A stretch of DNA of 64,000 nucleotides from Candidatus Eremiobacterota bacterium (lineage in GTDB: Bacteria; Vulcanimicrobiota; Vulcanimicrobiia; Vulcanimicrobiales; Vulcanimicrobiaceae): assembly GCA_019235885.1 (NCBI GenBank), contig JAFAKB010000022.1, forward strand, positions 1 through 64,000, written 5' to 3'. Below are positions 4,070 to 52,201 of this stretch, in pieces. The notes beneath the pieces were generated by a model. It made no database searches and was not told where the DNA came from. It saw only the letters and a program-made list of their open reading frames with translations. A program made the translations under genes and the position numbers. The stretch's first letter is position 1; every line of letters starts with the position of its first letter.

Positions 4070-4534
4070 TCAGCCGGCGGCCGACGCCGGCGCCGCTTCC
4101 AGCACCGCGCGCAGGTTCGCCACGGCTTGCGCAGACTCGCGCTCGATCCGGCGCCGGATCACCAGCGCGTCAAGGACCGCGAACAGCGCGTTCGGCAGCT
4201 CATACTCGAGCGTGCGCGTGAAGCGCGTTCCGCCGCCGCCGTCCGGCGTCAGCGCGTAGGTGATCGTCGCGCGCCCGCCGGCTTCCGGGCGCGCTTCGAT
4301 GACCCAGCTCGAGGGCGCATCGCGGCGCAGCACGACCCATTCGCAAACGCCGTGCCGTCCGGCGACGACGAACTCCTCGGTGCAGCGCTCGCCGACGTCC
4401 TGCGAGTGCCCGGCATCGCCCGTCACCCGAATCGACGAGGGATGCCACTGCGGCCAGTTCGCCGGCGTGGTGACGTAGTCGAACACCTCGTCGGGAGAGC
4501 GGCGTATCGCCGCCTCCGAGCTGATGCGCGTCAT
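4070..4534 (-). CDS. SRPBCC family protein (polyketide cyclase/START-like)
   Basis: 154 residues. The start at 4534 is chosen because CGGAGGAAC lies just before its ATG; an upstream in-frame start at 4573 has no such site. The protein shows the SRPBCC pattern: SSEAAIRRSPDEVFDYVTTPANWPQWHP at the N terminus and a C-terminal helix from residue 120. Such proteins bind hydrophobic ligands in a helix-grip cavity, and the substrate is unknown here. It is convergent with coxE and is probably not part of that operon. It is distinct from CoxG (different strand, little similarity). Confidence 0.8.
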   Translation of the reverse strand: MTRISSEAAIRRSPDEVFDYVTTPANWPQWHPSSIRVTGDAGHSQDVGERCTEEFVVAGRHGVCEWVVLRRDAPSSWVIEARPEAGGRATITYALTPDGGGGTRFTRTLEYELPNALFAVLDALVIRRRIERESAQAVANLRAVLEAAPASAAG

Positions 4535-44366: not shown

Positions 44367-44805
44367 CTCCCGCTCATGAGAAAGTGCCGCCTCACGCCTC
44401 GGCGGCTCCGTCTACGACTTGCGACGCCCGGTGGAGCCGGCGGGTGCGTAGATCGGTGGTGGTTTAGGGGGAGTGTACGGGGAACGAAACCGTCGCGAGG
44501 GGCGTCCTTAATCGTTCATAAGAGATACGTGAGGCGCGTCGGATGGTTTCGTTCCCGTACCTCAAGTATCGGACGCCCGCTCGGCAAGTTTACCGCTCCC
44601 GGCCCGGTCGTTTCCGTATCTTGACGTAGCCGCCGAACCGTCGGCACTGTGAGCGACCTGCCGCCCTAGGATATCCAGGCACGGCCTGGGCAATCCGCGG
44701 CGTCGGCGCGGTGACCCTCGGGAGCTGGACACCTTGTAGCGCCCTTAAGGGCTGATTGTCCAGAAACACCACGACCCGTGAATCAGATGCCGTGGCGACT
44801 GATAC
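44367..44805. other. Hairpin-rich intergenic region next to the helicase gene
   Basis: 439 bp without a convincing gene. It holds a GCCGCC/GGCGGC hairpin (44386-44406), the 17/16-bp inverted repeat described separately, the hairpin CCAGGC-ACG-GCCTGG (44675-44689), the 12-bp palindrome GCCCTTAAGGGC (44741-44752) nested in CTGGACA/TGTCCAG (44725-44763). The density of inverted repeats suggests a structured RNA, a mobile-element end or a cluster of protein-binding sites. A 60-residue minus-strand ORF at 44590-44772 has no recognisable features and is not called. Confidence 0.55.
44475..44578. repeat. Interleaved inverted repeats (pseudoknot order)
   Basis: Arm A GTACGGGGAACGAAACC (44475-44491) pairs with A' GGTTTCGTTCCCGTAC (44545-44560), with one bulged G. 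Arm B GGGCGTCC (44500-44507) pairs with B' GGACGCCC (44571-44578). The order A-B-A'-B' would form a pseudoknot if transcribed. The loop is AT-richer than the surroundings. Confidence 0.6.
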
Positions 44806-47700
44806 TCAAGAACCGCAGATGGTCAGCATCGCATTCTGCTGTTCACACCAATTTCCCGAAGCTGCGATCATGTTGTTGCCATGAATCCAATCCCCTATGC
44901 CGTCCAATTTTAGGCCGGGCTGGACGGCCATGATAGTCCATTGCACGCGCGGCGGAGTCCGAATATAGAGAGATAGGATCTCTCGCAACTCTTTCTCATC
45001 ACCGTGCGCGATATGCGTCGATGCTCTGTCGCCTAGTCGACGAGCGATCTCCGGAAACAGCAGTGTTGGAACGGTCCAACGCACACTTCGACTGGCTTGT
45101 GCAAGAACTTCATAGATATCCGCAAGCCTATGGCCCGGTTTTTCACCGCTCGACCACTTGCAATGAACAAGAGTTACAGACGCCTGACGAGCCGAACTAC
45201 GACGCACTACAATTAAATCAGCGATTTCATTCGCGGCATCATCGACTATCAGATAGCTGTCCGGATTTTCTGCAATGACTTCCGCGATTGTCATGGCGAG
45301 AATGTTGATTTTCCCGGCTTCCGGCACTCGAGACTCCGAGGACAAATCGACGCCATCCCAGGCCCAGCGGCGGAACTCCACCGGCGGCGCTCCGTCGAGG
45401 CTCCGCAGAATGCGCGCGCGTCCTCTAACGACGCTCGTTCCATCAGCAAAGATTATTGTTAGGGGATACTGATTGAGGATGTCACTAAAGCGCAGTCGCT
45501 CATTTTGCACAAGCGCAACGATGTCCGACCTGGCCACAACAGTACCGTCTAACTTTACAACGTATGTACCGATTAGTTTACCGGCGGCATCGACTCCGAC
45601 TAACACAGAATTCCCGGCAGCACGGCCGCGAAGGACGATATCGGAGACGTGAACAGTGCTATTTGCCGTTTCTAGCTGCACATCGTTAATATAGATCTCG
45701 GCCGCGAGACTAACACATAGCACGTCCCGCGGGTAACTGGCAAGCCGATGTCGCAGCGCAAGGCCTGCGATTCCGATAGACGACGATGTAGAAGCCATAA
45801 GGCGTGAGCCGATGTCGAGACACCAATGACGCCACGCAAGGAGCGACCCAGCTGAAGACTGCCAGATTTTGGCTGAATCGAAAGCCCCACCGATGCTATC
45901 AACACCTCCACCGACGCGAAATCGACCGATCGCATGGCCTGCACTCGCAGTGAGACGATCGGTTGCAGTAATACCACGCTCCGCGGCCCGTCCTGCGAGA
46001 CCTTTGTATGACGCGCCTGAAGACGCATCTATTTGATCGCTGCGGGCTCCGATACTAGAAAATGCTTCGATGTTGAAAGATCGAACGATCTTGCCCACTT
46101 CCTCACCATCCAACTGAACTGCATCCGAAGCTCCGAAGTGCGCAAGCAATTCCGCTGTCGTAGCCTCGGTATCGCTGGAAATGAAGAGTAGCCTACGACC
46201 TCGATCAATGAATGCGAGGTGAAGATCATATTGTTCCGTGTCTAATGCGGTGGAACGTAACCATCGGGGATGCACTCTGCTACGTGTGATTATGGCCGCT
46301 AGATCGCCGTCACTCTCCCAAAACGCCCGCCACACCGGACGCAGCGCTAGGTCGGCCGGAGCGCTTCGTAGGTCAACGTCGATTCCCGGCTCGATCCAGA
46401 ATATTCGAGCATATCTTCCGGGCTCGACTGCGGTAAGCGCAAACTCTTCCGGCTTACCGATAAACGTTGTGAGATAGTGTCTAGAAGCGCGCTCCTTTTC
46501 AACGGCCACGTCTGCGATATCGGGCAGAAGCTGCCCCCAAGACGCGTCCTCCTGGTACAACACTTCGGTTTCGCCGGAAAGGTCTTCAGGGATTGCAACC
46601 AGTTCCGGTTCGATTATTTTATCGTCCAGTGTCCTTGCTAAGCGTCCGACAAATTGAAGCGTCGCCGCGAAAGATCGATGCTTTGCATGATAGGCAGCAA
46701 TCTTTAGTCGTTTAAGATCAAAACCTTCGGTCAGGACGCCGACGACGATTACGCCGCGATAGATTCCTTGTTCAAGACGCTCGACGATATCGTTAACCTC
46801 GCGCGCGGATAGTGTCCCGACCAGGACGGGGAGTTCCAATCCTTTTCTTTCATATAGAGCCTTAAGCCGGTAAGCCTCAGCGATTTTGTTAGTCCGCACC
46901 AATAGCTGGCTCCCGGCGTCTCGGTGCCTCCTGGTATTCAACCTTTGGATAGCAACGCGTGCAATCGCATCATCTGCTGTTTCGCCCTTATCGAACTTTA
47001 CGGGTATAAAGGCGATTGGCCAATAGACGCCGTCAGCAATTGCTTCTCGGATGGAATATGTATAAACTATCTCCCCCGGCATTTGCCGCCGATCTCGACG
47101 TACGGGGGTAGCCGTCAGCATGGCGCATGGAAGAGTAGCAAACTCTTCAAGAATTGCGTTCCAGGTCGGTGCTGGAGAATGATGAGCCTCATCAATTATA
47201 ATTTGATCGAATAAATCTGGCGGTGGCGCCGGCACTCCGTACTTACTACTGACGCACTGAGGAGTCGCCACTATGACGTCATAGCCCGAAAGCGAATCCC
47301 AATCACCAGCCGATCTGATCCGCTTGCTCAGTGCTCGCACCTTTGGAGCCGCAACATTGCGCCGAAGCGCATTTGCCAGCTTAAGTGAGTTTAAGGTGCT
47401 GAACTCACGTTGTACTTGTCGTCGAACGATTTGAGACGGGACGACGACGAGTACACGCTTAGCGGCAGTGGCAATTGGCAGCGCCGTGATTACCGCAGTC
47501 TTGCCTGTTCCGGTTGGAAGTATTGCCTGACTTATTCCCGAACCTTCGAGAACACGCGCGGCAAGAGCCCACGTCGCTGCGACTTGAGCTCTGCGGAGCG
47601 GTCGTGGCGCATCCGATTTAAAAGCCAGAGATAAGTGGGCGTGATTGTCGCTGAAGAATGACGTTGCTGCCTCCTGACGATAAGGCCCGCGCCTTGACAA
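44806..47700 (-). CDS. DEAH-box superfamily 2 helicase with nuclease-like C-terminal domain (putative defence protein)
   Basis: 964 residues, TTG start. Helicase motifs in order: I PTGTGKT (62-68), II DEAH (170-173), III TATP (196-199), V GVLTEGFDLKRLKIAAYH (321-338), VI QFVGRLART (349-357). Residues about 400-800 match nothing I know. Near the C terminus EIADLIVV (from 825) and, 17 residues later, VHCK (845-848) resemble a PD-(D/E)xK nuclease centre with Glu825, Asp828 and Lys848, His replacing the usual Glu. Base composition is far less GC-rich than the surroundings, as for transferred genes. Comparable helicase-nuclease proteins serve phage defence or restriction; this is inference. No methylase or partner gene adjoins. 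Confidence 0.82.
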   Translation of the reverse strand: MSRRGPYRQEAATSFFSDNHAHLSLAFKSDAPRPLRRAQVAATWALAARVLEGSGISQAILPTGTGKTAVITALPIATAAKRVLVVVPSQIVRRQVQREFSTLNSLKLANALRRNVAAPKVRALSKRIRSAGDWDSLSGYDVIVATPQCVSSKYGVPAPPPDLFDQIIIDEAHHSPAPTWNAILEEFATLPCAMLTATPVRRDRRQMPGEIVYTYSIREAIADGVYWPIAFIPVKFDKGETADDAIARVAIQRLNTRRHRDAGSQLLVRTNKIAEAYRLKALYERKGLELPVLVGTLSAREVNDIVERLEQGIYRGVIVVGVLTEGFDLKRLKIAAYHAKHRSFAATLQFVGRLARTLDDKIIEPELVAIPEDLSGETEVLYQEDASWGQLLPDIADVAVEKERASRHYLTTFIGKPEEFALTAVEPGRYARIFWIEPGIDVDLRSAPADLALRPVWRAFWESDGDLAAIITRSRVHPRWLRSTALDTEQYDLHLAFIDRGRRLLFISSDTEATTAELLAHFGASDAVQLDGEEVGKIVRSFNIEAFSSIGARSDQIDASSGASYKGLAGRAAERGITATDRLTASAGHAIGRFRVGGGVDSIGGAFDSAKIWQSSAGSLLAWRHWCLDIGSRLMASTSSSIGIAGLALRHRLASYPRDVLCVSLAAEIYINDVQLETANSTVHVSDIVLRGRAAGNSVLVGVDAAGKLIGTYVVKLDGTVVARSDIVALVQNERLRFSDILNQYPLTIIFADGTSVVRGRARILRSLDGAPPVEFRRWAWDGVDLSSESRVPEAGKINILAMTIAEVIAENPDSYLIVDDAANEIADLIVVRRSSARQASVTLVHCKWSSGEKPGHRLADIYEVLAQASRSVRWTVPTLLFPEIARRLGDRASTHIAHGDEKELREILSLYIRTPPRVQWTIMAVQPGLKLDGIGDWIHGNNMIAASGNWCEQQNAMLTICGS

Positions 47701-48151
47701 GTCACACGAGTTTGACTTCTGGCCTTGCGTACATCGTTCCGCCCGGAGCCTGGCTAGTCCCTGCGATACATGACTAATCTCCCTCCATCAGAGGTCCTTG
47801 TCCCAATCCGCGCCAGCTGATTCGCACTCGCCGCCGGATCCTATAGTTCACTCGCGCGACGGCGATCCTCGTGACGCTCGCCGTCGATGACGCGCTCCCG
47901 CTCGCCGACCGCGTCGTCGTGCTGGCCGGAACACCGTCGGAGATCGCGTTCACCGGCGTCGTCGGCGCCGACGCGACGCGGGCCGCGATTTTCAACGCCC
48001 TTGGCGTCGCGGACGTCGGACGAGATCAAAGATCTTGGCCTCCACCGCAACCAGCGAGACGAGATAGCGGTTTTAGGGAGCCCTACTCAACGCCACCGGA
48101 GGTACAGATGAAGCCAGGACAGCCGCCGCTAGGAATCTGATTAAAACGCCC
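47701..48151. other. 451-bp stretch with gene remnants
   Basis: Between the helicase start and the PDZ-hydrolase end. It contains the ABC-ATPase remnant listed separately, a phrase EIKDLGLHRNQ in another frame (about 48025-48057) reminiscent of small DUF1127-type proteins, and a GGAGG followed by a 10-codon ORF at 48108. These look like scraps left at an insertion boundary. Confidence 0.5.
47847..48020 (+). pseudogene. C-terminal fragment of an ABC transporter ATPase
   Basis: The frame reads ATAILVTLAVDDALPLADRV and then VVLAGTPSEIAF, ending near FNALGVAD. This is the H-loop to C-terminal region of nitrate/sulfonate-type ABC ATPases (usual form LVTHDVDEALxLADRVVVL); the H-loop His-Asp is changed to Ala-Val. 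A TAG at 47844 closes the frame upstream, and no Walker A or signature lies nearby. The fragment directly borders the low-GC helicase islet, so the rest of the gene was probably lost when the islet arrived. Confidence 0.6.
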
Positions 48152-50919: not shown

Positions 50920-51398
50920 TCCTCACGACGCCGGCGGAGCGGCGCGCGCTGCTCGACCGCTCGCGCACCGTCGGGATGGTCGGGGCGTCGGCGAACCACA
51001 GCCGGCCGAGCTACTTCGTCTTCTCGTACTTGCGCACGAAAGGGAAGCTCGACGTTTCCCCGATCAACCCGGCAATCGCGGAGATCGACGGCGTGCACGC
51101 GTATCCGTCGCTGGCCGCGTATCGTGAAGACCGCGGCGCGCCGCCGGACATCGTGGACGTGTTTCGCAAGCCGGACGACGCGCCGCAAGTCGTGCGCGAG
51201 GCGATCGCGGTCGGCGCGAAGGCGGTATGGTTTCAGTATGGCGTGATCAACGACGAAGCGATCCGCCTCGCCGTCGAAGCCGGGCTCGACGTCGTCGTCG
51301 ACCGCTGCATAAAAGTGGAGTCGGCACGCTTTGACGGCGGCCTCGCCCTGGGCGGGATGAACACGGGGCTACTGACGTCAAAGCGACGCGCTCGGTAA
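50916..51398 (+). CDS. CoA-binding domain protein (YccU-like)
   Basis: 160 residues, GTG start inside the metY stop (GTGA). The Rossmann-like CoA_binding domain reads RTVGMVGASANHSRPSYFVFSYLR, VSPINPAIAEIDGVHAYPSL, DIVDVFRKPDDAPQVVREAIAVGAKAVWFQYGVINDEA. Such proteins bind CoA; the effect is unknown. Adjacent metY homologs are common for this family, so a link to sulfur amino acid or CoA-disulfide metabolism is plausible. Confidence 0.85.
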   Translation: MILTTPAERRALLDRSRTVGMVGASANHSRPSYFVFSYLRTKGKLDVSPINPAIAEIDGVHAYPSLAAYREDRGAPPDIVDVFRKPDDAPQVVREAIAVGAKAVWFQYGVINDEAIRLAVEAGLDVVVDRCIKVESARFDGGLALGGMNTGLLTSKRRAR

Positions 51399-51556
51399 TG
51401 ATTAATCAGAGAATCGACCGGGATTTACGTGCCGCAGCAGTTCGAGGCTGCCATCAGAAATATGCGAACTTCCCCCGAATAATGCGAAGTTGTATGAAAT
51501 GATGGCCGAAAAGGACCGGGACTAGCGCTGGAGCCTGGTAGAATTTACGAACTACG

Positions 51557-52201
51557 GTGGCGCGACATGTTTTTCCAGCATGGTTTGATGCGGCGGCCTT
51601 TCGTGAAGCGTTTCAGCTAGCTTCAGAGAACCTTCCGCTGGCGGAACTCCGATACAGCGCCGCTGCGTCTGCCGACTCTTGCAGTGTCGACATCGCCCAA
51701 GAATACGTCGACGACTACGGAGTCTATCGTCTCGAAATTCTTCGTCGGATACGGGATATCGTTGCGACGAAAGTCGCCGAGCATGCAGGTTTTTTTGTCG
51801 TCGACGACCCGCCCCACCGTGCCTACCATTTTCAAAAGCGCGGATTGGCGACGCGGCATCTGCAATCAATGCTGACGCTCTACGACCGCATCGGCGTTTC
51901 AATCATACAGCTTGCGGCCACGCAAGACGGTAGAATCGTCTGGCCTAAATTCGGCTTTCGCATCGATCCGGCGGAACGTGCGGAGTTTGAGAACGAGCTC
52001 ATCGCTCTGGAGACGCGCCTGACCGGAATACGACCCGCTCGCTCGTCGTTGCCGGTGGACGGGCCTGACATGCTGACGTACAGCCGAGGCGAATACCCGC
52101 TCGGCATGATGGCACTCCGCGCGCGCAGCTTTTGGTCTCTGCAACTGGACTTGACTGATCGGGCGCAACGCGCGATACTAGAAGCAAAATGTCGACCTTA
52201 G
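51557..52201 (+). CDS. Protein of unknown function with GNAT-like segment
   Basis: 214 residues, GTG start; TAGAAT at 51539-51544 could be its -10 box. Residues about 94-138 read QKRGLATRHLQSMLTLYDRI, then IQLAATQDGRIVWPKFGF. This resembles the acetyl-CoA-binding motif A (Q/RxxGxG/A) and following strand of GNAT-fold proteins. The rest is unmatched. Base composition is lower in GC than the neighbours. The next gene starts 13 bp before this stop, so the two form a unit, possibly a toxin-antitoxin-like pair (inference only). Confidence 0.6.
   Translation: MARHVFPAWFDAAAFREAFQLASENLPLAELRYSAAASADSCSVDIAQEYVDDYGVYRLEILRRIRDIVATKVAEHAGFFVVDDPPHRAYHFQKRGLATRHLQSMLTLYDRIGVSIIQLAATQDGRIVWPKFGFRIDPAERAEFENELIALETRLTGIRPARSSLPVDGPDMLTYSRGEYPLGMMALRARSFWSLQLDLTDRAQRAILEAKCRP

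Follow-up and report, generated by a model that had tools for sequence, protein, structure and literature searches.

What does a lone helicase gene do among the genes of a soil bacterium, and how did it come to be there? The window analysed here, a 64,000-nucleotide stretch of Candidatus Eremiobacterota contig JAFAKB010000022.1, raises this question at positions 44806–47700 of its minus strand. The reading frame is open throughout and is present as one full-length copy in the genome. Counted from a TTG codon it spans 964 codons, or 952 if translation begins at ACG. The predicted product is a single protein that joins an SF2 helicase to a PD-(D/E)XK-like nuclease.

The helicase gene lies in a laterally acquired islet

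A preliminary description of this DNA reported a lone DEAH helicase gene of low GC content between high-GC housekeeping genes. GC content, GC3 and neighbour content all agree with that picture. The gene has a GC content of 0.539, compared to 0.694 outside the islet, and a GC3 of 0.51, compared to 0.87–0.94 for six neighbours. It is the sole gene of an inserted islet of 3.4 kb (positions 44460–47830; GC content 0.548, or 0.55 against 0.69 in round figures), which was delimited by composition and by blastn against congeners. The genes on either side have metabolic or housekeeping roles; there is no methyltransferase gene beside the helicase gene, and no defence island surrounds it.

The same site was inspected in related genomes. 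An acyl-CoA thioesterase (4HBT) gene adjacent to the islet was present in all 10 congeners searched, and the helicase gene in none of them. In congener G120, the 4HBT gene and a Cys/Met PLP-enzyme gene are 261 bp apart, and the site is empty. In congener G126, an ABC-transporter operon occupies this interval. The right edge of the islet abuts a remnant of that operon: positions 47831–48027 (plus strand) correspond to the 3′ end of an ABC-transporter ATPase gene, are ~80% identical by blastn to positions 4275–4451 of the G126 locus (L131) and also match other congeners. The gene is longer in G126 and is severed at the islet edge. Taken together, the empty site, the operon and the ATPase remnant indicate that the islet, at ~44460–47830, replaced part of an operon. 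Congeners have either nothing or other genes at this site, and the islet interrupts the operon; the window gene is therefore laterally acquired. Its import into this soil-bacterium host is recent. Neither a tRNA nor a clear flanking direct repeat marking an integration site was found at the islet.

Other features of the region were also recorded. At the left edge of the islet is an inverted repeat, GGGAACGAAACCGTC (44480–44494) and GATGGTTTCGTTCCC (44542–44556), with arms that are 93% complementary and a gap of 47 nt. Another dip in GC content (0.588) occurs at 51001–52000, to the right of the Cys/Met PLP-enzyme gene; the left part of this dip is conserved in congeners and so it is probably not a further islet. 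Immediately left of the islet, positions 44381–44463 (plus strand) contain an unannotated structured-RNA candidate of ~80 nt. This is found in 10 of 11 genomes of the genus, usually as one copy in each, with 83–92% identity. Elsewhere in the phylum it was not detected, and it has no Rfam match, even at an E-value of 1. RNAalifold places 24 pairs in the candidate, 6 of them with compensatory double changes (e.g. CG:5/GC:5 and UA:5/CG:4). The candidate is near the thioesterase gene in most congeners and on another contig in G125.

The start codon of the window copy

No Shine-Dalgarno-like motif precedes the TTG codon at position 47700. A Shine-Dalgarno-like AGGAGG (47670–47675, minus strand) is positioned 5 nt upstream of an ACG codon (47662–47664), and many homologues have an ATG or GTG start where this ACG occurs. 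The start codon of the window copy may have degraded to ACG. Either the TTG at 47700 or the ACG is used, or there is an assembly error, or the copy is poorly expressed.

A complete helicase core precedes a β-rich middle region

The SF2 helicase core (ResIII plus Helicase_C) covers residues 35–363 (46612–47598, minus strand). Pfam E-values are 9.4e-19 for ResIII and 7.7e-5 for Helicase_C, and Pfam also assigns DEAD to this interval. All core motifs are present: Walker A (PTGTGK, residues 62–67), DEAH (170–173), TAT (196–198) and motif VI (QFVGR, 349–353). These helicase motifs are conserved across the family. In Foldseek searches, the relatives of the motor were RadD, XPB, UvrB and SauUSI.

Pfam had no match beyond residue 363. 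With NCBIfam and PADLOC, the matches were confined to the helicase core, plus one weak match of the tail to the PADLOC model PDC-S71. A full-length AlphaFold2 model (pLDDT 89.2) was mostly β-strand, according to DSSP, between residues ~412 and 770 (45391–46467, minus strand). This middle region matched neither Pfam nor PDB profiles and is presumed to be DNA-binding or regulatory. Searches with Pfam and PDB profiles found no nuclease domain in the N-terminal or middle parts of the protein.

The C-terminal tail resembles a PD-(D/E)XK nuclease

The tail comprises residues 774–964 (44809–45381, minus strand). The preliminary description had picked out E825, D828 and a VHCK motif (K848) here, with His in place of an acid. 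These features are real, not due to chance, and family-wide: E825, D828, H846, K848, Q868 and R888 are identical in 61 of 61 aligned family members, and E789 and D820 are conserved in 60. Where PD-(D/E)XK enzymes have the Asp or Glu of (D/E)xK, all 61 have His. The His-for-acid motif is also kept in both E. coli homologues and in G038, a genome from another genus of the same bacterial family. The corresponding residues in the 996-aa E. coli homologue WP_001549206.1 are E850, D853, H871 and K873, of which K873 is the HxK Lys. Aligned members share just 23–36% identity with the window protein, and mean column identity over the 61 is only 27%. That the active-site residues are invariant despite divergence to ~25% identity argues for selection for catalysis, and the nuclease-type domain is under strong purifying selection.

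Foldseek searches with the full model were swamped by helicase cores and, hence, the tail was modelled alone (AlphaFold2; pLDDT 91.3, pTM 0.89). The model has helices at 39–50 and 98–114 and strands at 55–59, 68–75, 78–86, 134–138 and 157–165. The E825-x-x-D828 motif (45217–45228, minus strand) is at the start of core β-strand 2 (DSSP strand 829–834), which D828 opens. The H846-C847-K848 motif (45157–45165, minus strand) ends core β-strand 3 (DSSP strand 839–847). An α-helix, with the invariant Q868 (45097–45099, minus strand), and more strands follow.

When the PDB was searched with the tail model, FokI ranked first and second, with CdiA-CT, BstEII, EcoRV, SfsA and the HCMV terminase near the top; the best E-value was 0.017, none was ≤0.001, and unrelated folds were mixed in. 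In a viral library, herpesvirus UL24 recurred with E-values above 0.001. UL24 is a listed member of the PD-(D/E)XK clan (PMC1913061). Because the Foldseek E-values are weak, the assignment to PD-(D/E)XK combines topology with motif position and conservation. On this basis, a nuclease-like domain of PD-(D/E)XK type is the supported prediction; modelled and searched in this way, the tail did not turn out to have a different fold. The presence of HxK in place of (D/E)xK could mean that cleavage chemistry is altered or lost. Residue E825 may supply a carboxylate.

The family is widespread and patchily distributed

A scan of species genomes identified at least 554 relatives of the window protein. 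We retrieved 80 loci and read 75 full-length members from species genomes; both sets span archaea and considerably more than a dozen bacterial phyla. With tblastn, 155 plasmid records were matched, 49 of them at ≥80% coverage and ~25–31% identity, and the plasmid homologues span Pseudomonadota, Actinomycetota and haloarchaea. Among 149 genomes of the phylum, the nuclease domain was found in just 2, and none of 10 congeners has it. For E. coli, just 10 of 5,426 genomes matched the query used.

The 67 sequences placed in a tree fall into two deep groups. Within a set from Actinomycetota and Chloroflexota, the window gene is paired with a further Eremiobacterota sequence (SH-aLRT 100). The second deep group has mostly longer proteins and includes the E. 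coli members. Phylum labels need 25 changes on this tree, compared to a minimum of 17, and we describe the spread as patchy on these grounds, although a number of changes above one does not prove transfer.

Two homologues deserve separate mention. One is found in a 328-kb record named 'Acinetobacter phage MD-2021a' (L021; CAKLQH020000001.1), where its neighbours include paa, leuA and further metabolic genes; given this setting, the record looks like a bacterial chromosome contig. The other, on a P. aeruginosa megaplasmid (L011:7992–17597), is ~5 kb from the mph(E)/msr(E) macrolide-resistance genes, with IS elements.

In the literature searched, with subscription papers and preprints mostly outside the search, we found no name for the family or for accession WP_001549206, an E. 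coli homologue; it is possible that the family is named in some publication. In the libraries searched, no named system covers the family, and the PADLOC release reaches the helicase core only.

Near neighbours of the homologues tend to match defence models

We compared 666 neighbouring ORFs at 92 loci. No constant partner gene was present; the largest cluster of neighbours was represented at 6 of the 92 loci, and its positions varied. Since no neighbour recurs more often than this, neither a methylase nor another gene is an obligate partner. The possibility that homologues are always encoded with a methylase, as in a known restriction system, was thus not borne out.

The ORFs within two genes of the homologues matched 312 PADLOC models at E ≤1e-10. 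For control ORFs from the same loci, equal in number, matched in length and 5 or more genes distant, the figure was 72. Many of the models are redundant and cover one protein, so the difference is a tendency and not a count of systems. Models matched by the close neighbours include PtuA/PtuB, AbiEii, type I, II and III methylases and RmrA. Among 116 near neighbours there were 5 phage integrases and 2 AbiEii proteins. In E. coli ECONIH5 and 3985, a 996-aa homologue adjoins retron Ec78 with PtuA/PtuB. In E. coli 200164, a 979-aa homologue is two genes from an integrase at ssrA, and AlpA and a DUF927 primase-type gene are downstream. Homologues with the same tail do occur in defence contexts, a point that the preliminary description had proposed to check.

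A longer form, of ~1,110 aa, occurs on two alphaproteobacterial plasmids (L015:1–10973 and L013:1504–10910), where it follows a PD-(D/E)XK nuclease family gene. Near the longer form, L015 has annotations for a UvrD-helicase and a further DEAD/DEAH helicase, and L013 has DUF1819 and WYL genes. The surroundings look like a multi-gene defence operon.

Comparison with known helicase-nuclease systems

The window protein does have a one-gene layout, with the helicase and nuclease-like tail in a single ORF and no constant partner. The claim of the preliminary description that no known defence system is organised in this way is wrong: Hna has this very layout (PMC13381803), and Nhi is a further nuclease-helicase encoded by one gene (PMC12904381).

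Hna, encoded by Sinorhizobium meliloti SMa2245, is a proven one-gene defence system with an SF2 helicase and a C-terminal PD-(D/E)XK domain (PMC13381803). The 845-aa protein is DinG/ExoDinG-like with a reduced Arch domain; it is a 3′–5′ ssDNA exonuclease, inactive as an ATP-bound dimer and freed by phage SSB, and causes abortive infection (PMC13381803). Both Hna and the window family are solitary genes with wide lateral spread, and both place a PD-(D/E)XK-type domain C-terminal to an SF2 helicase. However, Hna is DinG/ExoDinG-like, whereas the window family is ResIII/RadD-like and has HxK. For sequence comparison, the Hna query was an ORF read from pSymA and taken as SMa2245 by the literature; the record is unannotated, and so the identification used position, size (an 852-codon frame against 845 aa) and the motif Lys. 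The BLAST E-value was 0.52, hhalign gave a nuclease probability of 0.3%, and helicase similarity was limited to generic motifs I–II. Having no homology to Hna beyond generic helicase motifs, the window family is separate from Hna but of a known kind.

Nhi is a single-gene nuclease-helicase for phage defence (PMC12904381). As in the window family, both activities are in one polypeptide. The Nhi nuclease is N-terminal and the helicase is of a different type, and in these features Nhi would differ from the window family.

PDC-S71 is a PADLOC single-gene phage defence candidate, and the only PADLOC model to share the nuclease motif. Residues 420–475 match the motif in 27 of 51 members (best E-value 4.3e-13). 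This corresponds to ~60 of 589 model positions, the nuclease motif alone. We conclude that the nuclease is shared and that the architecture is different.

Hachiman also couples an SF2 helicase to a PD-(D/E)XK-type nuclease, but uses two genes (HamA for the nuclease and HamB for the helicase) where the window family uses one. HamB models cover part of the helicase core in 4 of 14 members, and no HamA (DUF1837)-like partner was found at the 92 loci. Type III and type I restriction-modification were rejected; no methyltransferase is a constant neighbour at the 92 loci, and there is none beside the window gene. In DUF499 systems, a type-1 BREX-related helicase has an active C-terminal PD-(D/E)XK domain (PMC12839542). 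These loci comprise a Swi2/Snf2 helicase, a DUF499 ATPase and an N6-methylase, whereas the window family is without such a constant partner.

The best PDB profile match (2.5e-22) was to SauUSI (type IV; PDB 7clg), which is likewise a single protein with a ResIII-like core. Similarity to SauUSI-type restriction is confined to the helicase core, and Pfam finds helicase domains only. The SauUSI nuclease is N-terminal and of the PLD family, and the C-terminal part of SauUSI reads modified bases.

Proposed function

We favour the view that the window gene is probably a laterally acquired, self-contained effector of innate immunity, with helicase and nuclease in one polypeptide. That relatives lie among known anti-virus genes suggests a stand-alone anti-phage role, and we infer a defence function for the family from this context. 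As an analogy, the nearest working counterpart is Hna. An ATP-driven SF2 helicase or translocase of RadD/XPB/ResIII type would be coupled to a C-terminal nuclease with an E-x-x-D ... H-x-K active site. The helicase and β-rich middle region might recognise or unwind aberrant or replicating foreign DNA, such as ends, gaps or SSB-coated ssDNA. The nuclease would then cut the DNA, and phage or plasmid replication may be halted directly or, as in Hna, by abortive infection. The intact SF2 motifs, the invariant active-site residues, the lack of a recurrent neighbour gene, the plasmid homologues and the empty site in G120 also speak for this reading. The weak Foldseek E-values of the tail, HxK in place of (D/E)xK, the housekeeping neighbours of the window gene, the redundancy of the PADLOC models and the possibly degraded start codon speak against it.

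Within the libraries searched, the family falls under no named system, and its middle region is without a PDB match; the window protein is thus probably an independently assembled helicase-nuclease with a putative defence role. In its fullest form this is a tentative proposal: an unnamed, widespread one-gene immune system, arisen independently of Hna, with a PD-(D/E)XK-fold nuclease that has an obligate ExxD...HxK centre, in which a RadD/XPB-like motor and a β-rich middle region of new fold would together sense aberrant phage or plasmid DNA.

Alternatively, the protein could be an accessory factor for DNA repair or recombination, its RadD/XPB-like helicase and nuclease tail acting on damaged or recombining DNA, whether from the host or from mobile elements. 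By fold, the motor is most like RadD, XPB and UvrB, and archaeal XPB works with the Bax1 nuclease (PDB titles). We consider this unlikely, however, since housekeeping repair genes are not distributed so patchily (2/149 genomes of the phylum and 0/10 congeners). The low-GC lateral islet, the plasmid and island locations and the enrichment of neighbours for defence models also argue against it.

Modification-dependent, type IV-like restriction is rather improbable. Here, the protein would be SauUSI-like with the nuclease at the opposite end, and the β-rich middle region would read modified bases. No cognate methylase would be needed, and the core is close both to SauUSI (7clg, 2.5e-22) and to PADLOC mREase_IV models (14/14 members). 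However, only the core matches; the N-terminal PLD nuclease of SauUSI is absent, and neither Pfam nor PDB profiles recognised an SRA or EVE modified-base reader in the middle region.

Very improbable is a catalytically dead PD-(D/E)XK tail that binds or senses DNA while the helicase does the work: although every member has His for the (D/E)xK acid, and inactive REase domains occur on BREX-type helicases (PMC12839542), E825, D828, H846, K848 and Q868 are the same in 61/61 members, a loss of such residues is usual in dead domains and the inactive REase of BrxHII is without conserved residues (PMC12839542).

The favoured reading, a defence effector, is directly testable because the family has members in E. 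coli. Our analysis defines a large, uncharacterised protein family that appears to reach the layout of Hna from different parts. The His at the (D/E)xK position, kept throughout the family, raises an enzymological question.
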